Shown: positions 45,537-60,193 of the stretch, piece after piece
Layout: each line of letters starts with the position of its first letter
Position numbering within the stretch: position 1 is the first letter of the stretch
From: Maribacter sp. MMG018
GTDB taxonomy: Bacteria; Bacteroidota; Bacteroidia; Flavobacteriales; Flavobacteriaceae
Assembly: GCF_018100785.1 (NCBI RefSeq)
Contig: NZ_JAGJEC010000002.1
Span: 1,116,001-1,180,000 of the forward strand
DNA length: 64,000 nucleotides
Direction: 5' to 3'
Translations under genes and position numbers: made by a program
Notes under the pieces: generated by a model
What the model was told of the DNA's origin: nothing
Databases searched by the model: none
The model's input: the letters and a program-made list of their open reading frames with translations, nothing else

Positions 45537-45682
45537 AAGGTTCAAAAGTCTGCAAAAGTAAATGTTGAATAGGATCCTCGATTCAATTTCACCAAGAAAT
45601 TATTAACATCTACACCGCTACTTTTCCAACATAATTTAAGTATTCTTCTAAAATCCATCACTTTTTTCATAACTTCGTGCTA

Positions 45683-46081
45683 ATGAGCAAAGTAATTTCC
45701 ATATCAATTTCGTTTTTAATTCTACTACAGAGTTTTGGACTGCATACGGATGATATTGCCCAGATAGACGAGTTTATAGAGCACGCACAGTTTCATTATA
45801 AAGAATATGGAGACAATGTTCTGGTTTTTATATCAAAACATTACGGTAATCTTAAATTAGAGCACGAACGGGAACACCAAGAAGAAAAAAATGATCACGA
45901 TCAGTTGCCTTTTCAGCACCAGTGCCATTTGACCCCTCTGGTTGTTTTTACACCAAATTTATGCACTCAAGAATTGAGTTCTCTTGTAGTATTCGAATCT
46001 AACAGTACCAATTTCCATTATCAGGCCCCATCCTCTTCATTACACGCCATGGGGTTGTTGCAGCCACCTCGGCAGTCATAA
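45683..46081 (+). CDS. His-rich exported protein of the heavy-metal efflux locus
   Basis: 132 residues from the ATG at 45683 (MSKVISISISFLILLQSFGLHTDD); an ATG at 45677 is also in frame. An N-terminal signal segment is followed by a His/Glu/Asp-rich stretch (about 60-85: KLEHEREHQEEKNDHDQLPFQHQCH) suited to binding divalent metals. It comes 73 bases before the czcA-like gene on the same strand. Small His-rich open frames of this kind often precede Cus/Czc operons in Bacteroidota. Inference: periplasmic metal scavenger or sensor. No metalloregulator gene (ArsR, MerR) is seen nearby. Confidence 0.75.
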   Translation: MSKVISISISFLILLQSFGLHTDDIAQIDEFIEHAQFHYKEYGDNVLVFISKHYGNLKLEHEREHQEEKNDHDQLPFQHQCHLTPLVVFTPNLCTQELSSLVVFESNSTNFHYQAPSSSLHAMGLLQPPRQS

Positions 46082-46154: not shown

Positions 46155-49100
46155 ATGCTATCATATATCATTAATTTCAGTATTAAGAACAAATTTATTG
46201 TTCTACTATTCACATGCTTTATTATAGGTTTTGGGCTTTATTCCCTATCAAAAATACCTATAGGTGCCGTACCCGATGTTACCAATAACCAGGTACAGGT
46301 AATCACCACATCCCGTAACCTATCTACCCAAGATATAGAACAGTTCATTACCTATCCGGTAGAATTGGAAATGGCCAATCTACCAGGTGTTCTAGAGATA
46401 CGTTCGGTATCAAAGTTCGGTCTTTCGGTAGTTACCATTGTATTTGAAGAAGACATGGGCTCTTTTTTACCGCGGCAACTTATAGCCGAAAAAATCAAAT
46501 CTGCCTCGGAAAAGATTCCCGAAGGTTTTGGCTCACCCGAAATGGGGCCAATTACGACGGGGCTCGGCGAAATATATCAGTACATTCTAGATGTTGAACC
46601 AAAGTACAAAGACCAGTACACCCCCGAAGACTTACGAACCATTCAAGATTGGATCGTTAAAAGACAGCTTTCGGGTATCCCGGGGGTCGTAGAGGTAAAT
46701 ACTTGGGGCGGTTTTCTAAAACAATATGAAGTCGCCATCAGTACAGATAAGCTTAATGCCATGAATATTAGTGCCCGTGATGTGTATACCGCTTTGGAAA
46801 CCAATAACAGTGTTGCCGGCGGGGGATACATAGAAAAGGTAAACCAAGCTTTTTTTATTCGTGGCGAGGGACTAATATCATCCTTAGAGGATATAGAGAA
46901 TATCGTAGTAAAGAACGATAATGGCATACCCATTTATATTAAAGATGTTGCTAAGGTAGGTTTTGGAAACGCCATTCGTTTTGGGGCCATAACAGGAAAT
47001 GGAGAGGGGGAAAAAGTGCTCGGCCAAATAATGATGCTAAAGGATGCCAACTCAAAAAAGGTAATCGATGCCGTAAAAGAAAGAGTCGCGGATATCTCTA
47101 AATCATTACCACAGGGTGTTTATATAAACCCTTTTTTGGATCGGAGCGACCTTATTGCCAAGACAACCTTCACCGTGACCGAAAACCTTGTTCTAGGCTG
47201 CTTGATAGTGATCTTCGTTGTTGTATTGTTACTGGGCAATTTTCGTTCGGGACTCGTGGTTGCCTCGGTAATTCCTTTGTGCCTACTCTTCGCACTGTCC
47301 ATGATGTATATTTTTGGAGTAGACGCCAATTTAATGAGCCTAGGTGCCATTGATTTTGGAATTATCATAGATGGTGCGGTGATCATTGTCGAATTCATAG
47401 CCTTTCAAATAAAGAAAGAACACGACAAAATAAACTCTCTGTCCGTAAAGGAACAACAGGCATTAAAGGATGATATTACTTTTAAGGGAGCCTCAAAAAT
47501 GATGAACTCCGCCATTTTCGGACAACTTATTATTTTAATAGTCTTCATTCCCATTTTATCATTGAGCGGTGTAGAGGGTAAAATGTTCAAACCAATGGCA
47601 CTTACCTTCAGCTTTGCATTGATCGGGGCCATGCTTTTATGCTTTACTTATGTTCCTGTAGTTACCTCTGTTTTCTTAAAGCCATCCAAAGAAGACACCC
47701 AAAATATCTCTGCACGTTTAATGGCATGGTTAAGAGCTAAATACGACCCTGTTATAGATTGGGCATTGAGAAGTAAAAAGATTGTTTTGGGCACGGCGGT
47801 GGTTCTCTTGGCCGCAGCTACCTATTTATATATATCAATGGGCAGTGAGTTTGTACCTACTTTGGACGAAGGGGATTTTGTCATCCAACCGGTTTTAAAA
47901 ACCGGAACGTCTTTGAGCAATACTGTGGAGACCACTACTGAAATTGAAAATATTTTATTGCAAAAATTTCCAGAAGTAGATCAGATAATTACCAGAATAG
48001 GCGCGGCCGAAGTACCTACCGACCCAATGTCTATGGAAGAAAGCGATGTAATTATATCGTTAAAACCGAAAAGTGAATGGACCTCTGCCTCTTCTAAAGA
48101 CGAACTGGCCGATAAGTTTAAAGAAGCATTGAGCATTATTCCTGGCATGGAAGTAGAATTTACACAACCTATCGAAATGCGTTTTAACGAACTTATTACC
48201 GGGGTAAGAGCAGATATAGCCATTAAAATCTTTGGTGAAAGTTTAGATGTTCTTGCTCAAAAGGGCAAAGAAATAGGAGACCTTATAAAAGACGTAGATG
48301 GGGCCGCGGATATTTCTGTCGAAAAAATTGCCGGGCTACCCGAGATGAACGTAAAATACGATCGATCCAAGATAGCTCGTTACGGATTAAACATACAAGA
48401 GCTCAACGACATGGTGGCTATGGGCTTTGCCGGAAAAACGGTAGGTAGTGTTTTTGAAGGCGAAAAAAAGTTCGATCTTGTTGTAAGATTGGATGCCGAC
48501 AAAAGAAACGATATCGACAATCTTAAAAATCTTTATGTAGATATACCTTCGGGAGAAAAAATACCTTTGAGCGAACTGGCCGAAATCTCCTATAAAAAAG
48601 GAGCTGCCAAAATATCTAGGGATGACACCAAAAGAAGGATCGTTGTAGGTATTAATGTTAGAAACAGAGATCTACAATCGGTAGTCGACGATATACAACA
48701 ATTAGTGAACGACCATATCTCGTTACCCTCGGGTTACTCTATTTCCTATGGCGGACAATTCGAAAATTTACAAAGTGCCAAAGCAAGACTCTTAATTGCC
48801 GTACCTATAGCTTTGGTTCTTATATTCATTCTTCTCTATTTCGCTTTTAAATCGGTAAAAGATGCCTTAATGATCTATTCCGCCATACCATTGGCGGCAG
48901 TTGGCGGGGTGTTTCTTTTATGGCTTAGAGACCTGCCTTTTAGTATTTCTGCGGGGGTCGGGTTTATTGCCCTTTTTGGAATAGCCGTGTTAAACGGAAT
49001 TGTTTTGATCGAGCATTTTAAAGAATTACAAAACGAAGGATTCGATGATATGAACGCATTGATCAAACAAGGGGCCAAAGATAGGTTACGGGCCGTTTTA

Positions 49101-50483
49101 CTTACGGCATCTGCCGCTGCCCTTGGTTTTTTGCCAATGGCCATTTCCACCAACGCAGGTGCCGAGGTACAACGACCTTTGGCTACCGTTGTTATTGGTG
49201 GTTTAATAACCGCTACGTTACTAACGTTGGTGGTCTTACCTGTTCTATATTCTTACATACACCGTTCAGAAAAGCACCAAAAGAACAAGTCAAACGGCAC
49301 TATAGGCGTAATCGGCACAATTCTATTATTGTGCTCCACATCTTTACATGCACAGAGCAAAAAGACCTTAAAGGACCTATTGCCTATTGCCGTTGAAAAC
49401 AATGCCGGTCTAAACGCCTACAAACTTCAAATGCACCAATCCGATGCCTTGGTCAATAGCGCTTACGATTTTGAGAAAACAAATATCTACTATCAATTTG
49501 ACCAGAACAATATAGCGATCAACAACGAACCTTTGCAGGTTTTTGGGGTACAACAGAATTTTAAATTTCCAACGATTTATTTTTCCGAGAAAAAAGTAAA
49601 CAAGGCCAAATACCATCTTTCGGAAAGTGCGTACCACATTCAGAAAAAAAGATTGGAAAAAGAGGTGACAACTCAATATTACGAGTACCAAGTAGCCCAT
49701 GAGATGGCCAATGTGTATTCTATATTGGACAGTCTCTATAACAATTTCGCCAATATTGCCGAACGTCGTTTTGAACTTGGAGAAACCAATTATCTAGAAA
49801 AAATAACGGCCGCTTCCAAACAAAAACAAATACAACTAAAATATTTGGATGCTCAAAAGAACATGGCCATTACCCTTCAAAACCTACTTAAAACAGTACA
49901 GTCTAAAGACAGCTTTGAGATAGCGATAGAACCTGTTATTAAAGTATCGTTGAATGAAATGGATATTGAAACGAGTCCTGAGATAACCTATCATAAAAAC
50001 CAAATAGATATAAGCAGGGCCCAGAGCAATCTTGAAAGTCAGCAATTACTTCCCGACATTGGCGTCAGCTATTTTCAAGGAAGCAATGCTGGTATAGACG
50101 AAAATCTGCATGGCTACCAATTGGGATTAAAAATACCCTTGTTCTTTACGGGGCAATCTTCAAGAATCAAGGCTGCCCGGATAGATAGGTTACGTGCAGA
50201 ATCTGAATACAGGGAATATGAAATTCAACTGAACACCAAACTTTCAACATTAAAAAGGAAGCTCGTCACATTACAAGAGACATTGACCTACTACGAAAAT
50301 GAAGGAAGTATGCTATCGGATGAGATCCTAAAAACCGCCAATGGCAGTTTCAAAAATGGCGAAATAGATTTTTACCAGTACATACAAAGTCTTGAAAGTG
50401 TCTACGAGGTAAAAATAGACTACCTAAACAAACTAAAAGAGTATAACCAAACAGTTATTACCATTAATTACCTAACACTTTAA
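46155..50483 (+). CDS. czcA: CzcA-type heavy-metal RND permease fused to a TolC-type outer-membrane efflux protein
   Basis: 1442-residue chain. Residues 1 to about 1045 are a complete HME-RND permease: the TM4 signature DFGIIIDGAVIIVE places D400, D406 and E413 as in CzcA (Zn/Co/Cd/Ni type) rather than CusA. Then follow a second hydrophobic segment, GTIGVIGTILLLCSTSLHAQ (about 1049-1067), which reads like a signal peptide with cleavage after Ala1066, and about 375 residues of TolC-like outer-membrane factor (KDLLPIAVENNAGLNAYKLQMHQ; helical NLESQQLLPDIGVSYFQG). Signal peptidase could split the chain into separate inner- and outer-membrane parts. The adaptor gene follows after 10 bases; together they would form a full tripartite pump. 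Annotation as CusA/CzcA is usual. Confidence 0.93.
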   Translation: MLSYIINFSIKNKFIVLLFTCFIIGFGLYSLSKIPIGAVPDVTNNQVQVITTSRNLSTQDIEQFITYPVELEMANLPGVLEIRSVSKFGLSVVTIVFEEDMGSFLPRQLIAEKIKSASEKIPEGFGSPEMGPITTGLGEIYQYILDVEPKYKDQYTPEDLRTIQDWIVKRQLSGIPGVVEVNTWGGFLKQYEVAISTDKLNAMNISARDVYTALETNNSVAGGGYIEKVNQAFFIRGEGLISSLEDIENIVVKNDNGIPIYIKDVAKVGFGNAIRFGAITGNGEGEKVLGQIMMLKDANSKKVIDAVKERVADISKSLPQGVYINPFLDRSDLIAKTTFTVTENLVLGCLIVIFVVVLLLGNFRSGLVVASVIPLCLLFALSMMYIFGVDANLMSLGAIDFGIIIDGAVIIVEFIAFQIKKEHDKINSLSVKEQQALKDDITFKGASKMMNSAIFGQLIILIVFIPILSLSGVEGKMFKPMALTFSFALIGAMLLCFTYVPVVTSVFLKPSKEDTQNISARLMAWLRAKYDPVIDWALRSKKIVLGTAVVLLAAATYLYISMGSEFVPTLDEGDFVIQPVLKTGTSLSNTVETTTEIENILLQKFPEVDQIITRIGAAEVPTDPMSMEESDVIISLKPKSEWTSASSKDELADKFKEALSIIPGMEVEFTQPIEMRFNELITGVRADIAIKIFGESLDVLAQKGKEIGDLIKDVDGAADISVEKIAGLPEMNVKYDRSKIARYGLNIQELNDMVAMGFAGKTVGSVFEGEKKFDLVVRLDADKRNDIDNLKNLYVDIPSGEKIPLSELAEISYKKGAAKISRDDTKRRIVVGINVRNRDLQSVVDDIQQLVNDHISLPSGYSISYGGQFENLQSAKARLLIAVPIALVLIFILLYFAFKSVKDALMIYSAIPLAAVGGVFLLWLRDLPFSISAGVGFIALFGIAVLNGIVLIEHFKELQNEGFDDMNALIKQGAKDRLRAVLLTASAAALGFLPMAISTNAGAEVQRPLATVVIGGLITATLLTLVVLPVLYSYIHRSEKHQKNKSNGTIGVIGTILLLCSTSLHAQSKKTLKDLLPIAVENNAGLNAYKLQMHQSDALVNSAYDFEKTNIYYQFDQNNIAINNEPLQVFGVQQNFKFPTIYFSEKKVNKAKYHLSESAYHIQKKRLEKEVTTQYYEYQVAHEMANVYSILDSLYNNFANIAERRFELGETNYLEKITAASKQKQIQLKYLDAQKNMAITLQNLLKTVQSKDSFEIAIEPVIKVSLNEMDIETSPEITYHKNQIDISRAQSNLESQQLLPDIGVSYFQGSNAGIDENLHGYQLGLKIPLFFTGQSSRIKAARIDRLRAESEYREYEIQLNTKLSTLKRKLVTLQETLTYYENEGSMLSDEILKTANGSFKNGEIDFYQYIQSLESVYEVKIDYLNKLKEYNQTVITINYLTL

Positions 50484-50493
50484 AACAAATACC

Positions 50494-51639
50494 ATGAAAT
50501 CATATATATATAAAATACTATTGCTGGCCGCAATTTATACGGCGGCAAGTTGTGGCGAAAAAAACCAAACGGCCGCTAAAAGCGAAGACCCCATAAATAC
50601 CGGCAATTCATTTATAAAAGTTACCCAAGGTCAGTTTGACCAGTTAGGCATGCAATTGGGATCTTTTGAAAAAAAGTCGTTCCCCGTACTAATTAGTGCC
50701 AATGGTATGATCGATGTTCCACCCGAAAACAGAGCGGTGGTAAACGCCACCATGGGCGGTTATATAAAAACGACCCCATTTTTAATAGGAGATAAAGTTG
50801 TGAAAGGGCAAACATTGGTGACCATCGAGAATCCTGAATTTATAAGCCTTCAACAACAATACATGGAAGTAAACGAACAACTAGGATATTTAAAGGCCGA
50901 GTATGAACGAAATAAGATCATGCAGGCAGAAAATATCACCTCGCAAAAGAACTTTTTAAAAGCGGAAAGCGAGTACAAATCCGCAGTGGCAAAACATACG
51001 GGATTAGAAAAACAATTAAAAATGCTCAATATTTCGCCAACGCAAGTAAAAGCGGGCGAGATTGTTTCTTCCGTACGGATAACAGCACCTATTTCCGGTA
51101 GCATTACCAGTGTAAACGTCACCAAGGGCACTTATGTTTCCCCGGCCTCTCCAATTATGGAAATAATAGATAATAGCCATGTACACCTAGAGCTCAATGT
51201 ATTTGAAAAAGATATTATGAACGTGAAGAAAGAACAGAAAATAATCTTTACCATTCCCGAGGCCTCAAAAAACAGTTATAACGCAGAAGTACATTTAGTA
51301 GGTACCGCCATTGAAAAAAACAGGACCATTAAAGTGCACGGCCACTTAGAGGATGAGGACGAAGAAAACTTTTTAACGGGTATGTTCGTAGAAGCCAATA
51401 TAATTACCGACGAAACCACGTTAAACGCATTGCCCGGTACGGCAGTAACAAAAACGAATGACCAGAATACCGTACTGGTATTGGATAAAAAAGAAGGTGA
51501 TACATATTATTTTACGCAAAACATAGTTAAAGTAAGTAACGATGGGTACAATGGTTATATCCCCATCGACAATAGCAGTGACTTTCAACCGGACACTCAG
51601 TTTTTAACAGTGGGGTCCTATAATCTGATCGCTGAATAA
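50494..51639 (+). CDS. czcB: RND efflux periplasmic adaptor (CzcB/CusB-like)
   Basis: 381-residue membrane-fusion protein anchored by a lipid: MKSYIYKILLLAAIYTAASC has the acyl-Cys at 20. Standard parts: barrel-sandwich half (SANGMIDVPPENRAVVNATMGGYIKTTPFLIGDKVVKGQTLVTIENPEF), helical hairpin (QLGYLKAEYERNKIMQAENITSQKNFLKAESEYKSAVAK), second lipoyl half (VRITAPISGSITSVNVTKGTYVSPASPIMEI) and beta-barrel. It lies 10 bases after the czcA-tolC fusion gene. The first residues before the hairpin lack the Met-rich CusB N-terminus, in line with a Zn/Co/Ni-type pump. Some His/Asp-rich sites exist (HGHLEDEDEENF). Confidence 0.92.
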   Translation: MKSYIYKILLLAAIYTAASCGEKNQTAAKSEDPINTGNSFIKVTQGQFDQLGMQLGSFEKKSFPVLISANGMIDVPPENRAVVNATMGGYIKTTPFLIGDKVVKGQTLVTIENPEFISLQQQYMEVNEQLGYLKAEYERNKIMQAENITSQKNFLKAESEYKSAVAKHTGLEKQLKMLNISPTQVKAGEIVSSVRITAPISGSITSVNVTKGTYVSPASPIMEIIDNSHVHLELNVFEKDIMNVKKEQKIIFTIPEASKNSYNAEVHLVGTAIEKNRTIKVHGHLEDEDEENFLTGMFVEANIITDETTLNALPGTAVTKTNDQNTVLVLDKKEGDTYYFTQNIVKVSNDGYNGYIPIDNSSDFQPDTQFLTVGSYNLIAE

Positions 51640-51720
51640 CAATTCTTATAAAATTAGGTATTGTACCGCGAAAGGTTTTGACATACTTATAGACTAAAAC
51701 ATTATTAAATAAAAAATAAA

Positions 51721-52164
51721 GTGAACAGAAATATAAAATTGATCATGGTGCTTTTTCTTACCGGGCTTACAACGCTATGTGCACAAGACTGGAAGCATAG
51801 TTTTGAAGAGGCCAAAGAAATTGCCTCTAAAGAGGACAAACCTATTATTCTTGTTTTTCAAGGGTCCGATTGGTGTGCTCCGTGTATAAAACTAGATAGG
51901 GAGGTTTGGAGTACCAACGAGTTTCAATCGTATGCAAGGGAACATTATGTAATGCTACAGGCCGATTTTCCCAGAAGAAAGAAAAATAAATTGCCAGAAG
52001 CGCAACTGAATGCCAATAAAAAGTTGGCCGAGCAGTACAATCGAATGGGCGTGTTTCCTTTGGTAGTGGTGTTGGACAAAAACGGAAACGTTTTGGGCGA
52101 AACGAGTTATCAAAAAATGGGTCCGAAAAAATACATCGCCTTACTGAACAATTTTATAAAATAA
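51721..52164 (+). CDS. Exported thioredoxin-family protein (GTG start)
   Basis: 147 residues from the GTG at 51721, which gives a clear signal peptide (MNRNIKLIMVLFLTGLTTLCAQ). Thioredoxin-like domain (about 23-147) with active site WCAPC (Cys52, Cys55) and the cis-proline in MGVFPLVVVLDKNG. Periplasmic. It is the first gene of a four-gene cluster with apbE, DUF4266 and DUF3570 genes; apbE starts 2 bases after its stop. Role within the system is presumably thiol reduction of a cysteine partner such as the Cys-rich DUF4266 lipoprotein. Confidence 0.9.
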   Translation: MNRNIKLIMVLFLTGLTTLCAQDWKHSFEEAKEIASKEDKPIILVFQGSDWCAPCIKLDREVWSTNEFQSYAREHYVMLQADFPRRKKNKLPEAQLNANKKLAEQYNRMGVFPLVVVLDKNGNVLGETSYQKMGPKKYIALLNNFIK

Positions 52165-52165
52165 T

Positions 52166-53146
52166 TTGAGAAAGCTTTTATTCATAACGTTTATCTTTTG
52201 CTGTAACCTTGCTATAGGGCAACAGAATTATCTGAGAACCCTAAAGTTAATGGGAAGTCGTTTTGATATTACCGTTGTGGCCAACGACTCTGTAACCGCC
52301 AATGGTTATATAGACGATGCAGTAGCAGAAATAAAAAGAATAGAAAAGCTTATTTCTTCTTGGGACAAAGATTCGCAAACCTCCGAAATCAACAAAAACG
52401 CCGGTATAAAACCCGTAAAAGTTGCCCCTGAACTCTATGCTTTGATAAAAAGGGCCATCAATATATCAAAACTTACAGATGGTGCCTTTGATATCAGTTA
52501 TGCCTCTATGGACCGTATCTGGAAATTTGATGGTAGCATAACCGTTATGCCTTCGGAAGAGGAAATAAAATCTTCGGTGGCCAAAGTAGGGTTTCAGAAT
52601 ATTGTCTTAAATGACGAACAGCGATCTGTTTTTCTAAAACTACCGGGAATGAAAATTGGTTTTGGTGCCATCGGAAAGGGCTATGCCGCCGATATGGCCA
52701 AAAAATTGTTGATGGACAAAGGGGTTGTTGCCGGCATCATCAATGCTTCCGGCGACATGAATACTTGGGGAAAACAACCCAACGGGGATGACTGGAAAGT
52801 GGCCATTACCAACCCCTTGAACAAGAACAAGGTGTTTGCATTATTGCCTATTACCAACGGGGCGGTAGTCACCTCTGGCAATTATGAAAAGTATGTAAAC
52901 TTTAACGGTAAAAGATATAGTCACATTATAGACCCCAGAAGCGGATACCCGTCCAGTGGAATTATCAGTGTTACCGTTTTTGCACCCAAAGCAGAATTGG
53001 CCGATGCACTAGCCACTTCCGTTTTTGTTATGGGCAAAGAGATCGGTCTCGACAGAATAGACCAACTGCCAAAAATTGAATGTATTATCATTGATGATAA
53101 AGGCAATATTTCAAAATCGAAGAATATAGAAATAGAAAAATTATGA
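52166..53146 (+). CDS. apbE: FAD:protein FMN transferase, exported (TTG start)
   Basis: 326 residues from the TTG at 52166 (MRKLLFITFIFCCNLAIGQQ), chosen because it is the only start giving a signal peptide. ApbE moves FMN from FAD to Thr/Ser side chains of exported proteins. Visible hallmarks: LMGSRFDITV, GFGAIGKGYAADMAKKLL, NASGDMNTWG, SGNYEKYVNFNGKRYSHIIDPRSGYP and the Mg-binding DALATSVFVMG. Full length. Its stop overlaps the DUF4266 start by 4 bases. The covalent flavin acceptor is not obvious in the window: SGAS in the DUF3570 protein and SGAN in the DUF4266 lipoprotein are the only motif-like candidates. Confidence 0.94.
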   Translation: MRKLLFITFIFCCNLAIGQQNYLRTLKLMGSRFDITVVANDSVTANGYIDDAVAEIKRIEKLISSWDKDSQTSEINKNAGIKPVKVAPELYALIKRAINISKLTDGAFDISYASMDRIWKFDGSITVMPSEEEIKSSVAKVGFQNIVLNDEQRSVFLKLPGMKIGFGAIGKGYAADMAKKLLMDKGVVAGIINASGDMNTWGKQPNGDDWKVAITNPLNKNKVFALLPITNGAVVTSGNYEKYVNFNGKRYSHIIDPRSGYPSSGIISVTVFAPKAELADALATSVFVMGKEIGLDRIDQLPKIECIIIDDKGNISKSKNIEIEKL

Positions 53147-53355
53147 TAAAAAAAGCGCTAATATTCGTCGTTGTACTAAGTTCTTTTAGCAGCTGTGTCG
53201 TGGTAAAGGAGTATGACAAAGTAAACATTAATGACCCCGATATGATACTGGCCGACAAAAATTGCGACCGTAACGTGTCTACCATGCATTCGTACCGCGA
53301 AGCGGCCTCTGGTGCCAATGGAGGTAAAACTGGAGGAGGCTGCGGCTGTAATTAA
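53143..53355 (+). CDS. DUF4266 Cys-rich mini-lipoprotein
   Basis: 70-residue lipoprotein: signal MIKKALIFVVVLSSFSSC with the acyl-Cys at 18, then a short mature part ending in REAASGANGGKTGGGCGCN. Other cysteines are Cys41, Cys67 and Cys69 (CGC near the C-terminus). The family is annotated only as a domain of unknown function and, in my knowledge, occurs beside DUF3570 proteins. SGAN at 56-59 is close to the ApbE-type flavinylation motif but lacks the final Thr/Ser. Overlaps apbE by 4 bases, so expression is coupled. Cys pair may be the substrate of the operon's thioredoxin. Confidence 0.85.
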   Translation: MIKKALIFVVVLSSFSSCVVVKEYDKVNINDPDMILADKNCDRNVSTMHSYREAASGANGGKTGGGCGCN

Positions 53356-53379
53356 TAACCTAGCAACGGTAAACAAGCT

Positions 53380-54690
53380 ATGAAACAATTAAAATATTAT
53401 TTATTCATATTATCGGCATTAACATCCCTATCGCTTCTTTCGCAAGAAAGCGGAGACGCCTCATCTTACAAAAAACGTGTCTTGGAAAGTACCGAAGTAG
53501 ACTTCTTAACCAGCTATTACTCGCAAGACGGTGATAATGCCGCTGTCAGCGGTGGTATTGGTACAGAAGAGCTAACGGACGTTACCGGAACATTTGTTGT
53601 TTCGATACCGCTGAACGACGATGATGTCTTAACCATAGATGCAGGGGTATCTGCCTATACTTCGGCTTCCTCTAGTAACGTAAACCCTTTTGACGGTTCG
53701 GAAGCCGCCGACCCTTTTGTGGCCAGTTCCGGTGCCTCTCGATCAGATACTTGGGTGAATTTTACAGGTTCTTACAGTCATAGTTCCGACGATAGAAACG
53801 ATATATGGTCGGCCAAACTGTCCGTTTCTTCCGAGTATGATTATTTCTCGTTCGGTTTTGGTGGCGGATACACCAAACTTTTCAATGAAAAAAATACCGA
53901 ACTGAGTGTCAACGGAAATATCTACCTAGATTCTTGGAAAACCATATACCCCTTTGAACTGAGACCTTTTGGAAACGATGGCATAGGCTTTTTTAGACCT
54001 ACCGAAATAACGGGAAATACCGCATACAATCCCAATTTTTCTGAATTTGACAAAGAGAACAGAAACTCGTACTCCTTAGGTTTTGGCTTTTCACAAATTC
54101 TGCATAAAAACGTACAAGGTTCGCTTTCCTTGGATTTTGTAAAACAGGAAGGACTATTGTCCACTCCCTTTCAACGTGTGTATTTTAGTGATGTAGCCGA
54201 CAGTTTTATCGAAGACTTTCATTTGGCCGATGACGTAGAACGCCTACCCGACAGTCGATTTAAAATTGCAATGGGCGGTAGATTGCATTGGTACGTAAAC
54301 GAAATAGTAACGGTACGTACTTTTTATCGCTATTATTTTGATGATTGGGGCATTAACTCGCACACAGCAAGTATAGAAATACCTGTAAAGATTACAGATA
54401 AATTTACCCTATACCCCTCTTATAGGTTTTACAACCAGACAATGGCAGATTACTTTGCCCCTTACGAAACCCATTTATCGACACAAGAGTTTTATACCTC
54501 TGACTATGACCTTTCCGAATATGCCGCCAACCAATTTGGTTTTGGTATCTCGTATACCGATATTTTTACCAAAACACATATTTGGCGACTTGGTTTAAAA
54601 AGTATCGATCTAAAATATTACAGATATGATAGGGACACTACTTTTTCCTCTGGTATCGTTACCGCAGGCTTTAAGTTTGTAGTGGACTAA
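53380..54690 (+). CDS. DUF3570 outer-membrane-like beta-rich protein
   Basis: 436-residue exported protein: signal peptide MKQLKYYLFILSALTSLSLLSQ, then a beta-rich domain with the family's opening SYYSQDGDNAAVSGGIGTEELTDVTGTFVVSIPL (about 45-78) and many alternating aromatic strands (YKLG-like, RFKIAMGGRLHWYVNEIVTVRTFYRYYFDDWGINSH) to the C-terminal TAGFKFVVD. It looks like an outer-membrane beta-barrel of about 14-16 strands, though this is inference. SGAS at 117-120 lies in an extracellular-loop-like, Ser-rich stretch and could be an ApbE target. Last gene of the thioredoxin-ApbE-DUF4266-DUF3570 unit, 24 bases after the lipoprotein. Confidence 0.88.
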   Translation: MKQLKYYLFILSALTSLSLLSQESGDASSYKKRVLESTEVDFLTSYYSQDGDNAAVSGGIGTEELTDVTGTFVVSIPLNDDDVLTIDAGVSAYTSASSSNVNPFDGSEAADPFVASSGASRSDTWVNFTGSYSHSSDDRNDIWSAKLSVSSEYDYFSFGFGGGYTKLFNEKNTELSVNGNIYLDSWKTIYPFELRPFGNDGIGFFRPTEITGNTAYNPNFSEFDKENRNSYSLGFGFSQILHKNVQGSLSLDFVKQEGLLSTPFQRVYFSDVADSFIEDFHLADDVERLPDSRFKIAMGGRLHWYVNEIVTVRTFYRYYFDDWGINSHTASIEIPVKITDKFTLYPSYRFYNQTMADYFAPYETHLSTQEFYTSDYDLSEYAANQFGFGISYTDIFTKTHIWRLGLKSIDLKYYRYDRDTTFSSGIVTAGFKFVVD

Positions 54691-54718: not shown

Positions 54719-56032
54719 TTAAACCGATAAATTCCCGGCTAGCTGTTTTAAAACAATTTCAGATACTTTAGCCTGGAACTTGGCATTACTAAAACGTACC
54801 TTGGCATTGATGTAGTTTAATTGGGCCGTTCTAAACTCTATGGTGGGTATAATACCTATTCTATATTTCTCTACGGTAATGTCTAGGTTTTCTTTTGCAA
54901 TGGCCTCATTATTGCCTTCGAGCTCTATTAGGCTGATATTTGTAAGGTATGTTTGGTAGGTAGAACCCAAAAGAGCCAAAAGCTCTTGTTTTTGTTGGGC
55001 AATTTCTATCTCTGTGTTCTCTATATCCAATTTTCCGATCTTCTCGTTCCTATTTTGGTTAAAACCGTCGAACAGGTTCAGGGTCGCCCCAAAACCATAA
55101 CTGAATCCCCTAGATTTTGAGCTGGTATTAAAACCAAGACTAGATTCCGATTTGCCAAAATTGTATCCCGTAGTAGCGTATATGTTTGGGTATCTTGCCG
55201 CTTTAATCTGCTTTAATTCCAGCTCGGCTATCCTCTTATTTATTTCCATGGCCAATAACTGCGGATTCTCATTCACCACCATAGTCTCTAGATCCGGTAG
55301 CAGTAATGTTTCGTCCACAAAAATTTCGGGAGCAACTTTAAAATCCGTATCCAAATCCCGCGCCAGCTGTTGGTTCAATTTGATCTTGGTATTCGCATAC
55401 AGTTCTTTTTGTCGTTTCATCAAGGTTAAATCCGTATTTAGGTCCACTTGGGCATTCAATACCTCTAATTTAGAGGCCTTACCAATGGTAAACCTATTTT
55501 GTGCCAACTCTACCCTTTGTTTCGATATTTGAATGGTACTGTCCAATGCCGTTAGCTGTTGCTGCTGCTGTACCAAATCGTAATACGTAACCATCACATC
55601 ACCTACGGTAGATAAGATTACCTGTTTTAACTCAGCATCGCCAAGTTTTTTATTTTCCTTTAACTGCTCATAATTTGCGAACATTCCAAAACCATCGAAC
55701 AAGGTCCAATCCAAGGCGACCCCATAATTTAAACTGTTGTTTTTGGCATTGTCCTGCTCTGCTACCGTCCCGTCCAATCTTGTCTGCGAAAGATTTTGAA
55801 TGCTATTGTTATCTGAAATAGAGGCTTCTACAGAAGGTAGCATACCCGCCAAACCAGGACTAACCCCATATTCATCGATCTTTAAATCGTTAGAGGCGAT
55901 AATAATCTCATAATTATTCTTCAATGCCAACTTTACCGTCTCCTCAACGGTAAGTATCTCTTGGGAAAAACCCAGGGCAATACAACTAAATACAACAAAT
56001 ACAGATAAAAGACTACGATTACGGTATGGCAT
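54719..56032 (-). CDS. tolC: TolC-family outer-membrane efflux protein
   Basis: 437-residue outer-membrane channel of the drug-efflux operon. Signal peptide (1-23, ending in LGFSQ), then two helical-hairpin halves with the TolC repeats: TVEETVKLALKNNYEIIIASNDLKIDEYGVSPGLAGMLPSVEASISDN, and RAELELKQIKAARYPNIYATTGYN. Glu/Ser/Thr-rich helices and strands alternate as usual. It is the last gene of the unit: the RND permease stop precedes its start by 1 base. It converges on the DUF3570 gene with a gap of 28 bases. Confidence 0.94.
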   Translation of the reverse strand: MPYRNRSLLSVFVVFSCIALGFSQEILTVEETVKLALKNNYEIIIASNDLKIDEYGVSPGLAGMLPSVEASISDNNSIQNLSQTRLDGTVAEQDNAKNNSLNYGVALDWTLFDGFGMFANYEQLKENKKLGDAELKQVILSTVGDVMVTYYDLVQQQQQLTALDSTIQISKQRVELAQNRFTIGKASKLEVLNAQVDLNTDLTLMKRQKELYANTKIKLNQQLARDLDTDFKVAPEIFVDETLLLPDLETMVVNENPQLLAMEINKRIAELELKQIKAARYPNIYATTGYNFGKSESSLGFNTSSKSRGFSYGFGATLNLFDGFNQNRNEKIGKLDIENTEIEIAQQKQELLALLGSTYQTYLTNISLIELEGNNEAIAKENLDITVEKYRIGIIPTIEFRTAQLNYINAKVRFSNAKFQAKVSEIVLKQLAGNLSV

Positions 56033-56033
56033 T

Positions 56034-59000
56034 TTAATTACTTTCTAATACTTTAAACTCCGGTCTTTCTACCCTATCTCTTGACCATAAATAGTACAGG
56101 GCAGGTATTACGAACAAGGTCAGCACCAAAGAAAACATGGTACCTCCGATAATAACGACCCCCATACCAATTCTACTGGTAGATGCCGCACCCAAAGAAA
56201 GTGCTATCGGCAATGCACCCAATGCGATGGTTAAACTGGTCATTAAAATGGGCCTTAACCTAGATTCCGAAGCTTTTAAAATAGCTTCGCTTTTAGGCAT
56301 GCCCTGCTCTCTAAGCTGATTTGCGAACTCTACGATCAAGATTCCGTTTTTGGTCACCAGACCTATCAGCATAATGGTTCCTATCTGGCTAAAAATGTTC
56401 CAAGACTGACCAAACAACCATAACGAGAACATGGCCCCGGCCACGGCCATTGGCACCGTTAGTATAATAATAAACGGATCCACAAAGCTTTCGAACTGGG
56501 CGGCCAAGATCAAGAATATTAACAACAACGCCAATCCGAAGGCGAACAAAGTGTTGGAACTACTCTCCACAAAATCTCTAGATTCCCCACCCAAGTCCGT
56601 GGTAAAAGAATCGTCCAAGACCCTTTCCCTAATGGCCTCCATAGCCTCTATACCATCATTTATGGTCTTGCCCGGGGCAAGGTTGGCAGATACGGTCGCC
56701 GACATATATCTGTTATTGTGATACAATTGAGGCGGACTACTATGCTCTTTAGTTTCTACCAGATTATCCAATTGAATAAGAAGTCCGTCTTTATTCTTCA
56801 CAAAAATAGAGGTTAGATCCACAGGGGCATCCCTATCCTTTTTATCAAACTGGCCTATTACCTGATACTGTTTTCCGTTCATCAAGAAATAACCGAAACG
56901 CTGACCACTAAGAGACAACTGTAAGGTCTGTGCAACATCCAATACAGAAACGCCCAGACTTTCGGCCTTCTCCCTATTTATGTTCACATATATTTCAGGT
57001 TTATCAAATTTAAGGTTCACATCTACAAAAGAGAATGTTTCGTCTTGCTCCGCCTCTTTCATAAACTCAGGAATCTTTTCCTTTAGCTTTTCAAAGTTCT
57101 GGGCCTGTATAATAAACTGGATCGGTGGCCCTCCCCTTCTGTTTACAGATATGGTCGGCTTTTCCGATACATTTGATTTACCCCCTACATAAGCTTTGGC
57201 CCAACGCCCGAGATCGGTCGCAATTTCATGTTGCGTGCGATCGCGCTCACTTGGATCTACCAAAGCTATATTGGCCCTACCGCTGTTTACCGAAGAAGTA
57301 CCAAAACCAGGGGATGTAAGTACGAGACTTACCTTTTTTTCCGGAATGGAATCGTTTATCAAATTGGTAATATCGGTCATTAAACGATCCATATATTCAT
57401 AAGAAGAACCTTCAGGTGCGGTTACGCTCAACCTTACAAAACTACGGTCGTCATAAGGTGCCGTTTCTTTCGGAAGTAAAATATAGAACAGTGCAATTAA
57501 GCCCAAACAAGCGAATAAAATAGGAAAGCTAAGCCACTTTCTTTTCATAAAAACCCGTAGCGATCCCGCATAAGATTCATTCATTTTAAGAAAGTACTTT
57601 TCGGTAAAATGATAAAATTTAGATTGTTTTTGTTTACCTGGCTTTATCAGGTACGCGTTCAGCATCGGTGTTAACGAAAGAGAAACAAAAGCTGAAACCA
57701 GCACGGCGGCGCCAAGCACTACCCCAAATTCCCTAAACAACCTACCCACAAAGCCCTCTAAAAATATTACAGGTAGAAAAACGGCCGCCAAGGTTACAGA
57801 AATAGAAATAACGGCAAAGAATATCTCATTAGACCCTTTAATGGCAGCTTCTATGGGGCTCATGCCCTCCTCTACCTTTTTATATATATTCTCGGTGACC
57901 ACAATACCATCATCTACCACCAAGCCCGTAGCAAGTACAATGGCCAACAATGTCAGTACATTGATAGAGAAACCAAAAAGCCACATAATAAAGAACGTGG
58001 CGATCAAAGACACGGGAATATCTATTAAAGGACGCAAGGCCATAGACCAGTTTCTAAAGAACAGGTAAATGACCAGTATAACCAGCACAATAGATATTAT
58101 AAGGGTTTCCACCACCTCTGTAACGGCACGCCTTACAAAAACGGTATCATCTATAACCACATTGAGCTTAAAACCTTCGGGAAGGTCTTTTTTTAATTTT
58201 TCATACTCCTCATAAAAGGCATCGGCAATTTCCAAATAATTGGTGCCCGGTTGTGGAATTACCGCCGTTGCTACCATTGGCTGACCAGAATCGCTCATCT
58301 TGGTCTCCATATTCTCTCCCTCTAAAGAAGCCTTTCCAATATCACTAAGGCGCACGAGCTTCTCGCCATCTGCCATAATAATAATGTTGTTAAACTGCTC
58401 TTCGGTCTGTAGGTTTCCAATGGTCTTAACGGCCAACTCGGTATTTGTACCCGTAAGTTTACCCGACGGCAGCTCTACATTCTGGGCCAACAGGGCATTA
58501 CGTACATCGGCAACGGTAAGTCCGTAGGAAGCAAGTTTCAAAGGATCTATCCACAACCTCATGGCATATCTGCGTTGACCCCAAATTTGAACACTACTTA
58601 CCCCAGGTATGGTTTCGATCCGTTGTGCTATTACATTTTCGGCATAATCCGATAATTCTAAAATGTTCTTGTCATCACTCTGTACGGTCATCGACAGAAT
58701 ACGTTGGGCATCTGCATCCGATTTAGACACTACCGGAGGCGAATCTAGATCATCTGGCAGGCTTCTAACGGCCTGCGACACCTTATCCCTTACATCATTA
58801 GCGGCATCTTCCAGGTTCTTGTCCAAATCGAACTCTATACTGATAGAACTCGCCCCCTGCACACTAGAGGAGGTAATATTCCGAATACCATCTATAGAAT
58901 TAATGGCCTTCTCCAAAGGTTCTGTAATCTGTGATTCTATAATATCGGCATTGGCACCCGAATAGCTGGTTCTAACGGATACTTGTGCGGGATCTATGGA

Positions 59001-59114
59001 CGGAAACTCACGTATACCCAAATAGGTGTACCCGATAAGGCCAAACAGCACAATGGCAATGTTCATTACAATAGCTAGTACCGGACGCTTAATACTTAAG
59101 GTAGATAAATTCAT
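56034..59114 (-). CDS. AcrB-type RND efflux permease (HAE family)
   Basis: 1026-residue inner-membrane proton-driven multidrug pump with 12 predicted helices. N-terminus MNLSTLSIKRPVLAIVMNIAIVLFGLIGYTYLGIREFPSIDPAQVSVRTSYSGANADIIESQITEPLEKAIN is standard; TM4 carries GLVVDDGIVVTENIYKKV with the proton-relay aspartates. Compared with HME pumps the DFG-DGA pattern is absent, so a drug, dye or lipid substrate is likelier than a metal. Two periplasmic porter halves (about 35-330 and 550-860) are complete. Overlaps the adaptor stop by one base (TAATG) and precedes tolC by 1 base. Confidence 0.95.
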   Translation of the reverse strand: MNLSTLSIKRPVLAIVMNIAIVLFGLIGYTYLGIREFPSIDPAQVSVRTSYSGANADIIESQITEPLEKAINSIDGIRNITSSSVQGASSISIEFDLDKNLEDAANDVRDKVSQAVRSLPDDLDSPPVVSKSDADAQRILSMTVQSDDKNILELSDYAENVIAQRIETIPGVSSVQIWGQRRYAMRLWIDPLKLASYGLTVADVRNALLAQNVELPSGKLTGTNTELAVKTIGNLQTEEQFNNIIIMADGEKLVRLSDIGKASLEGENMETKMSDSGQPMVATAVIPQPGTNYLEIADAFYEEYEKLKKDLPEGFKLNVVIDDTVFVRRAVTEVVETLIISIVLVILVIYLFFRNWSMALRPLIDIPVSLIATFFIMWLFGFSINVLTLLAIVLATGLVVDDGIVVTENIYKKVEEGMSPIEAAIKGSNEIFFAVISISVTLAAVFLPVIFLEGFVGRLFREFGVVLGAAVLVSAFVSLSLTPMLNAYLIKPGKQKQSKFYHFTEKYFLKMNESYAGSLRVFMKRKWLSFPILFACLGLIALFYILLPKETAPYDDRSFVRLSVTAPEGSSYEYMDRLMTDITNLINDSIPEKKVSLVLTSPGFGTSSVNSGRANIALVDPSERDRTQHEIATDLGRWAKAYVGGKSNVSEKPTISVNRRGGPPIQFIIQAQNFEKLKEKIPEFMKEAEQDETFSFVDVNLKFDKPEIYVNINREKAESLGVSVLDVAQTLQLSLSGQRFGYFLMNGKQYQVIGQFDKKDRDAPVDLTSIFVKNKDGLLIQLDNLVETKEHSSPPQLYHNNRYMSATVSANLAPGKTINDGIEAMEAIRERVLDDSFTTDLGGESRDFVESSSNTLFAFGLALLLIFLILAAQFESFVDPFIIILTVPMAVAGAMFSLWLFGQSWNIFSQIGTIMLIGLVTKNGILIVEFANQLREQGMPKSEAILKASESRLRPILMTSLTIALGALPIALSLGAASTSRIGMGVVIIGGTMFSLVLTLFVIPALYYLWSRDRVERPEFKVLESN

Positions 59115-60193
59115 TATTCGGCGGGCATTAATTGAGGTTCATCCAATTCTACTTCTACTGGCGCTCCGTTTTTAAGCGCCATTACACCATAGGTGAGAAC
59201 CGTATCGCCCGCATGCAAACCGGACAATACCCTAACGGAAGAGCCCGTTCTTGCCCCTATTTCAACATCGATCTCTTTCGCCATACCATTTTCGACGATG
59301 AATATTTTTTTACCGTTTTGAACCGGAATCAATGCCTCGGAAGGCACCAACAATGCATCTTCGATGGTTTCCAATGGCAGAACCACGTTCGCATAGGCCC
59401 CTGGGTACAGATGCCCGTCCGCATTATCGGCCACTGCACGCATTTTCAAAGTTCTGGTCGCTATCTCCACTTCGGGCTCTACCGCATAAATGGTAGCCTT
59501 ATACTCTTCGGCCGAATCGGAGGTGGTAAAGATAAAATCTGAGTTTATATTTATTTTGGATGCGTACTTTTCTGGAATGGAGAACGTTAATTTCAACTTA
59601 CTCGTATTCACCAATTTTGCAACGGGCGTCTCGGGGGTCACATACGTTCCCTTTGAAATGGACCTTAACCCGATCGTCCCCGAAAAGGGAGCCCTTATTA
59701 CGGTTTTTGACAATTGTGCCGCTATTAACGAAGCTTCGGCACTGGCCGATTGAAAATCGGCACTTGCAATATCGTATTCCTCTTGGCTAATGGCCTGCTT
59801 GTCCAATAATAACTTGGCGCGCCTTTCGTTCTCCGCGGCCAATTTTTGGGCCGTTTTCACTTTTGACAGTTGTGCCTGCAACTCTATATCATCTACGGTA
59901 AAAAGCACTTGCCCTTGGGCTACCTTACTACCTTCCTTAAAATTGATACTTTGAACAATACCCGAAATTTCGCTTCTGATCTCTATCTGTTCATTGGCCT
60001 CCAATGTACCCGACAATGATATATTATCGTCAAACTTCTGGGGCTTTAATACAATCCCTTTTACGGTAGTCGCCTTTTGTGTCGGCGCTTCGTTTTTGGG
60101 AGCTCCGATCTTTGAGTTTGCGTTAATACGATATATTATCATCCCTCCCAATCCTACAATTAAAAGGGTATAAATAATGTATTTTAGTTTCAT
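59114..60193 (-). CDS. RND periplasmic adaptor (membrane fusion protein)
   Basis: 359-residue adaptor with an uncleaved N-terminal anchor (MKLKYIIYTLLIVGLGGMIIYRINA). Lipoyl halves: SGTLEANEQIEIRSEISGIVQSINFKEGSKVAQGQVLFTVDDIELQAQL and VIRAPFSGTIGLRSISKGTYVTPETPVAKLV; coiled-coil hairpin between them (AQKLAAENERRAKLLLDKQAISQEEYDIASADFQSASAE). First gene of the adaptor-permease-TolC operon. No tetR or marR regulator gene is adjacent; the 523-base region upstream holds a 10-bp inverted repeat (60387-60434) that could be an operator. Confidence 0.93.
   Translation of the reverse strand: MKLKYIIYTLLIVGLGGMIIYRINANSKIGAPKNEAPTQKATTVKGIVLKPQKFDDNISLSGTLEANEQIEIRSEISGIVQSINFKEGSKVAQGQVLFTVDDIELQAQLSKVKTAQKLAAENERRAKLLLDKQAISQEEYDIASADFQSASAEASLIAAQLSKTVIRAPFSGTIGLRSISKGTYVTPETPVAKLVNTSKLKLTFSIPEKYASKININSDFIFTTSDSAEEYKATIYAVEPEVEIATRTLKMRAVADNADGHLYPGAYANVVLPLETIEDALLVPSEALIPVQNGKKIFIVENGMAKEIDVEIGARTGSSVRVLSGLHAGDTVLTYGVMALKNGAPVEVELDEPQLMPAE

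Follow-up and report, generated by a model that had tools for sequence, protein, structure and literature searches.

A predicted outer-membrane flavin carrier and thiol-tailed lipoprotein in a Maribacter copy of the ApbE/DUF3570/thioredoxin/DUF4266 system

Gene clusters combining the flavin transferase ApbE with DUF3570, a thioredoxin and DUF4266, with and without DsbD, were described by Meheust et al. (eLife 2021, 10:e66878; PMC8238504), and the window analysed here, 64,000 nucleotides of Maribacter sp. MMG018 (contig NZ_JAGJEC010000002.1, positions 1,116,001 to 1,180,000, forward strand), holds one copy of that system as a four-gene operon at its positions 51721-54690. In the parts of the paper available to us, 285 clusters pair DsbD with genes that typically include ApbE, DUF3570 (227), a PF13899 thioredoxin (183) and DUF4266 (221), and 316 more clusters of ApbE, DUF3570, thioredoxin and DUF4266 are without DsbD. 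Two [S/T]GA[S/T] sites of the Chlorobium luteolum DUF3570 receive flavin from its cognate ApbE, giving UV-fluorescent bands, and flavinylation is lost only when both sites are mutated. VIT1 stands in 25 clusters, and from these neighbours the authors proposed Fe(III) assimilation, while calling the function of the DUF3570 system uncertain. The four-gene set is thus not new. DUF3570 or DUF4266 was named nowhere else in a literature search that took in neither preprints nor most subscription journals, and the later ApbE papers PMC11334425 and PMC12052999 do not name DUF3570 in their available parts.

The operon and the elements within it are, with positions numbered from the first letter of the window:

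51721-52164, + strand: Thioredoxin_7 gene (Pfam PF13899, E 4.9e-16), with WCAPC at residues 51-55
52166-53146, + strand: ApbE FAD:protein FMN transferase gene with a TTG start (Pfam PF02424, E 3.9e-86; motifs; ApbE tree)
53143-53355, + strand: DUF4266 lipoprotein gene, 70 residues, with a C-terminal GGGCGCN tail predicted to be flexible (Pfam PF14086, E 2.7e-17)
53341-53349, + strand: codons of the C-terminal Cys-Gly-Cys, residues 67-69 of DUF4266 (from the sequence; invariant in an alignment of 33)
53380-54690, + strand: DUF3570 gene (Pfam PF12094, E 7.1e-42), predicted 16-stranded outer-membrane beta-barrel and presumed ApbE substrate
53659-53670, + strand: predicted flavinylation site 1, TSAS, residues 94-97, an [S/T]SA[S/T] variant at the aligned position
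53728-53739, + strand: predicted flavinylation site 2, SGAS, residues 117-120, a canonical motif
53659-53745, + strand: 29-residue loop between strands 3 and 4, residues 94-122, holding both flavin sites (from the strand list of the model)

The genes are spaced by 1, -4 and 24 bases. The packing, coordinates and families proposed by an earlier sequence-only reading of this DNA are borne out by translation and Pfam. ApbE scores 289.3 bits against the Pfam cut-off of 25.6, which places it among the ApbE FMN transferases, and the motifs claimed for it are present as GAIGKGYAAD, INASGD, HIIDPRSG and ADALATS; DUF4266 scores 63.9 bits against a cut-off of 27 and ends in the family's CGC. The thioredoxin carries the WCAPC motif that had been assigned to it and resembles the DsbH profile NF043050 (E 8.6e-27), at 94.2 bits against a cut-off of 190, and is therefore related to DsbH but not filed there. 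CxxC is kept in 148/148 loci with a recognised thioredoxin in the gene run, and the exported protein is presumed to be a periplasmic dithiol donor. Export signals, claimed for all four products, were judged by eye and agree with that claim (hydrophobic N-termini; for DUF4266, an FSSC lipobox; in the two structure models, helices at the N-terminus). A Pfam search with the four products brought up no cytochrome family and no Erv match. DUF3570 contains no cysteine. Two parts of the sequence-only reading needed correction: DUF4266 is indeed a 70-residue lipoprotein, but 'Cys-rich' was too strong for three conserved cysteines (the lipid Cys 18, 67 and 69), and 'uncharacterised' no longer applies to DUF3570, a homologue of which has been flavinylated experimentally (PMC8238504, from its available parts).

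All four families of the Meheust system thus stand together, with two flavinylation motifs in DUF3570, and the nearest DsbD lies 28 kb away on the other strand, making this the DsbD-less form. The host genome (4.13 Mb, 17 contigs) has one DUF3570, three ApbE, one FMN_bind protein and two DsbD_TM matches over the cut-off. The sequence-only reading had feared that ApbE here might label only NqrC. This is unlikely, as the sole FMN_bind protein sits in an nqr-like operon (its genes named by eye) in which the next gene is another, different ApbE.

That reading had also made its proposal of an exported flavin/thiol redox system depend on how often the four families recur together. In a survey of 392 genomes drawn over the phylum, DUF4266 occurs in 103 and DUF3570 in 106, the 103 all lying within the 106 when the listings were compared by eye; the two families co-occur far beyond chance. 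For gene order we gathered 100 stretches of up to 20 kb, 80 named loci and the window, and removed those with the same last 150 DUF3570 residues, leaving 172 non-redundant loci: the window, the 80 named loci (chosen by likeness to the window DUF3570), 66 phylum-wide loci, 23 further loci from the window's genus and 2 from its order. The phylum-wide loci comprise all 58 DUF4266 matches outside family f32 and the window's own genome, plus 8 from 48 f32 genomes, and four matching genomes (G008, G009, G031 and G034) were left out of the long-stretch set. The order thioredoxin, ApbE, DUF4266, DUF3570 on one strand is found in 136/172 loci; ApbE is split or doubled in 2, the order DUF4266-DUF3570-ApbE occurs in 9, and 10 have no recognised thioredoxin. 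The proposal is thus supported, as a predicted system, by the recurrence of its genes. At four loci (L116, L117, L120, L121) DUF3570 and ApbE are separated by an exported protein, 218-234 residues long, whose start is Tat-like; that of L117 matches NusG_II, with a Rieske match below the cut-off. A mobile plasmid trait was considered and rejected, DUF3570 matching, among 72,556 records, two Hymenobacter plasmids and three large Vibrio records (24% of the query).

Both flavin sites are well conserved among 171 aligned DUF3570 sequences. Site 1 fits [ST][GS]A[ST] in 159/171, with Ala-Ser at the last two places in 169/171, and reads TSAS in 128, SSAS in 23, SGAS in 5, ASAS in 4, SAAS in 4, TGAS in 3, TAAS in 2 and TVPA in 2; the window's TSAS aligns with the TGAS and SGAS of more distant members. 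Site 2 fits the same pattern in 160/171. In the phylum-wide set, which is not dominated by near relatives, site 1 carries the motif in 53/65 sequences and site 2 in 55/65. This conservation suggests that ApbE accepts TSAS, and the ApbE of the operon very likely acts on the DUF3570 beside it.

The DUF3570 product is almost certainly an outer-membrane beta-barrel, as judged from its model, which agrees with the beta-rich, outer-membrane-like character first read from the sequence. An AlphaFold2 model built from 60 sequences (pLDDT 86.4, pTM 0.80) has 16 strands, and a Foldseek search with it returned, among the matches listed, 50 that are all outer-membrane barrels by title. Aligned with VIA-align, it scores Z 21.1 with the polysaccharide secretin 4y25, which we take to be PgaA (255 residues, rmsd 3.5), again 21.1 with a BamA model, 20.1 with PelBC and 18.7 with BcsC; these matches are at the level of fold, and among the matches listed only, so that other barrel families may still fit. 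The strand list shows lengths of 5, 29, 2, 40, 33, 4, 27 and 4 residues after the odd strands and turns of 4, 5, 4, 2, 4, 8 and 10 residues after the even ones, so all the long loops (29, 40, 33 and 27 residues) follow odd strands. The even strand number, the long loops on one side with short turns on the other and the barrel matches in the PDB are what an outer-membrane barrel would show, as a prediction in which closure of the barrel was not inspected. The lumen side of each strand was set, by choice, as its less hydrophobic face, and this face is the better conserved in 16/16 strands (mean 3.13 against 2.38 bits, compared without a shuffled control). In known barrels both termini are periplasmic and the loops after odd strands point outward. 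If DUF3570 follows them, loop 94-122 faces outward, and the flavin sites would probably lie on the outer side of the membrane. The C. luteolum protein made in E. coli was found mostly in the cell pellet (PMC8238504, from its available parts), as a barrel would be.

In DUF4266, CGC is present at the C-terminus in 171/171 sequences (CGCN 165, CGCG 4, CGCAK 2), and a loose lipobox pattern in 144/171. The model of the protein has a mean pLDDT of 56, with residues 56-70 below 50, pointing to what is likely a lipid-anchored flexible arm, and the near-invariant, apparently unstructured GGGCGCN tail would be suited to the role of a thiol shuttle. CxC motifs have potentials like those of PDI, and that of the CGC tripeptide is quoted as -167 mV (PMC3173608, from its available parts).

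As a whole these data are best explained by a thiol-to-flavin relay ending at the outer membrane and serving, in some clades, metal homeostasis or stress, an explanation that we advance tentatively, as close to an even call. ApbE would attach FMN to two serines of DUF3570, as others have shown for the Chlorobium homologue and as the conserved sites predict here. The two flavins would then sit in one outward-side loop of the 16-stranded barrel, either exposed or folded into its lumen. The exported thioredoxin, which DsbD probably keeps reduced, may give two electrons to the Cys-Gly-Cys of DUF4266, whose flexible tail would carry them to the flavins. From these they would pass to an external or periplasmic acceptor, for which a redox-active metal ion, Fe(III) for example, or else oxygen is the likeliest candidate. 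In the clades whose gene runs also hold divalent-metal RND (resistance-nodulation-division) pumps and VIT1, gene order points to a role in metal homeostasis or stress. On balance we favour the relay itself, and its thiol-to-flavin direction, by a modest degree; the metal role, likewise deduced, may be real but falls a little short of an even call.

The metal link comes from the genes around the operon. In the window they are:

45677-46081, + strand: small His-rich protein, exported by eye, 5' of the RND genes (no Pfam or NCBIfam match)
46155-50483, + strand: CusA/CzcA-type heavy-metal RND pump, 1442 residues (TIGR00914, 1177.7 bits against 701.45, over residues 1-1045)
50494-51639, + strand: RND periplasmic adaptor of CzcB/CusB type, 81 bases 5' of the thioredoxin gene (PF16576, E 7e-32; TIGR01730 over the cut-off)
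21497-23461, - strand: DsbD, thiol:disulfide interchange protein, about 28 kb away (PF02683, E 3.6e-24; DsbD_N)

The heavy-metal RND match of the pump ends at residue 1045/1442 and the remainder is TolC-like by eye; the pumps of other copies are of similar length. DFGxxxDGA, which we take to mark divalent-metal RND pumps, is present in 35/38 pump genes longer than 600 residues at the cluster loci. The window's pump has it too, and Cu(I) pumping by this RND is accordingly less likely. Relatives of the His-rich protein occur in 37/172 cluster runs, preceding the pump, VIT1 or the thioredoxin gene, and a metal-binding accessory is possible. The DsbD, one of the two DsbD_TM matches of the host genome, is a possible inner-membrane electron source. 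A multidrug-type RND operon (54719-60193, - strand; a TolC-like gene by eye, pump and adaptor) lies tail to tail with the flavin operon, an arrangement also seen in several genus mates.

Across relatives a gene run was defined as genes on the same strand with gaps of up to 350 bases, and neighbour families were assigned by profiles from one seed each, with samples checked by Pfam or NCBIfam. The runs of the 172 loci hold a heavy-metal RND in 38, VIT1 in 22, a kinase with a response regulator in 17, a Rieske-type protein in 16, a long DsbD-like protein in 8 and a multidrug RND in 1; for the 66 phylum-wide loci the counts are VIT1 20, Rieske 14, pump 10, kinase 10, DsbD 5 and multidrug RND 1, with pump, VIT1 or Rieske, singly or together, in 31/66. 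The sample checks confirmed the pump in L066, L107 and the window itself, and VIT1 in L077, L093, L107, L113 and, as a gene truncated where the stretch ends, L066; they also confirmed a response regulator in L067 and Rieske in L069, L098 and L105; CxH...CxxH is present in 15/16 Rieske-type proteins. The pump is placed in several ways. The order pump-adaptor-thioredoxin is that of the window, its genus mates and L107; a Rieske-like protein, without CxH...CxxH, stands between adaptor and thioredoxin in L096, and VIT1 followed by a 232-residue protein does so in L077. In L066, L067, L078, L081 and L086 DUF3570 is followed by a two-component system, pump, adaptor and VIT1, in L207 the pump is downstream of DUF3570, and in L204 it is divergent. 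In the Maribacter ulvicola copy (L191) a Rieske gene lies inside the cluster and DsbD directly follows DUF3570, the latter counting for electron supply through DsbD and thioredoxin. A Crp-type regulator adjoins copy L184. Two copies have a ferritin gene on the cluster's strand, about 560 bases upstream of the thioredoxin gene (L209:7222-7725, by Pfam; L223, by eye). Outside this set of genomes, an ApbE was the most up-regulated gene of Desulfovibrio alaskensis at 15 uM Cu(II) (PMC8836040, from its available parts).

The Rieske neighbours bear on the history of the operon. The third ApbE of the host genome directly follows a Rieske gene (Pfam), between purM-like and prfA-like genes (by eye); this pair of a Rieske lipoprotein and a diverged ApbE (L249:4484-6078, contig C1) has no known substrate gene adjoining. 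The same purM/prfA-type neighbourhood holds a whole cluster in L069, L089 and L091 and in the genus mates L140 (G012) and L159 (G032). A search of 37 genomes found the Rieske site in 22 of the genus, and in 21/22 ApbE follows Rieske with no thioredoxin between, the exception being G012, which has a thioredoxin there; G032 was outside this search. prfA is next in 20 of those 21; the remaining one, L271, has a fragmented ApbE, and its stretch stops short of prfA. In the ApbE tree the host genome's leftover ApbE at the Rieske site groups with the full-cluster ApbE found there (97/86 with L140; 100/99 with L069 added) and apart from that of the window operon. An older cluster lineage thus seems to have been lost except for ApbE and Rieske, and the window operon, with the pump next to it, appears to represent a second one. 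The Rieske-site ApbE is diverged, as read from its alignment: in 20 copies His253 is changed in 7 (to Asp in the host copy) and Tyr240 in 20. A pattern scan had first suggested a dead enzyme, an idea rejected because the alignment keeps 29-33/35 conserved residues in these copies.

Several observations weigh against the relay and its metal role. Site 1 is TSAS, with Gly replaced by Ser in most sequences, and is not the canonical motif; 5/171 DUF3570 have no [ST][GS]A[ST] anywhere in residues 61-200, and four (L096, L097, L101 and L113) read ASAS and SSPS or STPS with ApbE still adjoining. Nowhere in the barrel is the model less confident than in the flavin loop, residues 117-120 having pLDDT below 50, and exposed and lumen-folded flavins are therefore both possible. 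A CGC disulfide near -167 mV is not a strong reductant for FMN, so electrons could flow the opposite way, and the literature searched reports no electron transfer by a DUF3570 system. A promoter-like site at 51678-51705, just 5' of the thioredoxin gene, counts against assuming co-transcription with the pump, although the scan was near chance for promoters (29 found, 25.7 expected) and terminators (12 found, 9.7 expected). As to the neighbours, 35/66 phylum-wide loci have no heavy-metal RND, VIT1 or Rieske in the run, and 25/38 pump loci belong to the window's genus (17 coded loci, 7 named ones and the window itself), so the pump loci represent few events. Ignoring strand, a heavy-metal RND lies within nine genes in 41/172 loci and a multidrug RND in 11/172, the latter including the window, with ten in its genus.

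These last counts also feed the explanation that survives best among the alternatives, namely that pump and flavin operon are neighbours by shared descent or gene traffic and have no joint function. Neither pump nor VIT1 is in the run in 43/66 phylum-wide loci, and in seven genus genomes multidrug RND pumps (456 bits or more) number at least 21 and heavy-metal ones at least 17 among the matches listed, about equal. Because multidrug RND pumps are as numerous and lie near 11/172 loci, we lowered our confidence in the metal role and, slightly, in the explanation as a whole, and raised that in the absence of joint function. Against the latter stands the same-strand contrast of 38 heavy-metal with 1 multidrug RND, and also the variety of arrangements, with the pump upstream, downstream after a two-component system, separated by VIT1, or divergent. 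The chance of a pump in 10/66 loci is 3e-5 at an assumed 3% per locus, but these loci come from four genus codes, one of which supplies seven, and it is therefore this variety that carries the weight. The absence of joint function, while a serious competitor, appears somewhat unlikely.

That the system is an assimilatory reductase, reducing Fe(III) outside or in the periplasm for uptake as Fe(II), was suggested by Meheust et al. and draws on the VIT1 neighbours of their clusters and of ours and on an Aquimarina copy that has a ferritin gene upstream. The available parts of PMC7762939, however, deal with bacterial relatives of VIT1 (MbfA) under iron efflux, which leans towards export or stress rather than the assimilation proposed in 2021, and a frequent partner is an efflux pump of CusA/CzcA kind, with pump and VIT1 together in 8 loci; we regard assimilation as improbable. 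Equally improbable to us is a protective thiol oxidase or reductase in metal or oxidative stress, in which the flavin passes thiol electrons to oxygen or quinone in the manner of a sulfhydryl oxidase with a CGC tail. The PDI-like potentials of CxC motifs, the likeness of the thioredoxin to DsbH (below its cut-off), the DsbD link and the Crp-type regulator would all suit it, but it leaves unexplained why the flavin carrier should be an outer-membrane barrel with its sites in an outward loop. Least probable is that DUF4266 is a metal-binding thiolate lipoprotein, a trap or sensor whose cysteines thioredoxin only keeps reduced, for despite two close cysteines at a free C-terminus and metal-efflux neighbours in some clades, its tail is conserved and linked to DUF3570 also in the 35/66 loci that lack pump, VIT1 and Rieske.

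If DUF3570 is indeed an outer-membrane barrel with flavins on its outer side, the relay would amount to a haem-free electron route over the outer membrane in the 106/392 phylum genomes that carry it. One could go further and see in DUF3570 and DUF4266 an electron conduit, in which the thiol tail feeds two covalent flavins in or at the mouth of a single-chain barrel and so links periplasmic thiols to the cell surface, used by about a quarter of the sampled phylum genomes and in some clades setting the redox state of metals exported by RND and VIT1 neighbours; we offer this as speculation, more probably wrong than right. With a barrel model, an invariant CGC tail and neighbours of metal-efflux and Rieske type, the function of the DUF3570 system becomes testable.

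Compared with the clusters of Meheust et al., as far as their paper is available to us, the window operon has the same four families, the same pairing of ApbE with a DUF3570 substrate, the same two flavin sites and the CxC tail of DUF4266. It differs from their 'DsbD systems' in having no adjoining DsbD, a CusA/CzcA pump adjoining instead. What we add is the barrel prediction, the outward flavin loop, the flexible CGC tail and the heavy-metal RND and Rieske neighbours; the words 'Rieske', 'efflux', 'copper', 'heavy metal', 'barrel' and 'porin' are absent from the main text of that paper as available.

With the 4y25, PelBC and BcsC barrels DUF3570 shares its modelled fold, at 9-13% identity, a similarity without bearing on function, and we know of no flavin in these barrels. 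In the thiol oxidase Erv2 a CGC tail shuttles electrons to the flavin. A flexible Cys-Gly-Cys tail feeding a flavin would be common to Erv2-type sulfhydryl oxidases and the predicted relay; the relay differs in its covalent FMN on a barrel, the lack of an Erv match and a tail carried by a separate lipoprotein, DUF4266. Porin-cytochrome conduits of MtrCAB type, if our model is right, share with it an outer-membrane barrel, redox cofactors and a periplasmic feed of electrons. Flavins and thiols would here take the place of haems, and one chain would hold both barrel and cofactors; the likeness is drawn as an analogy.

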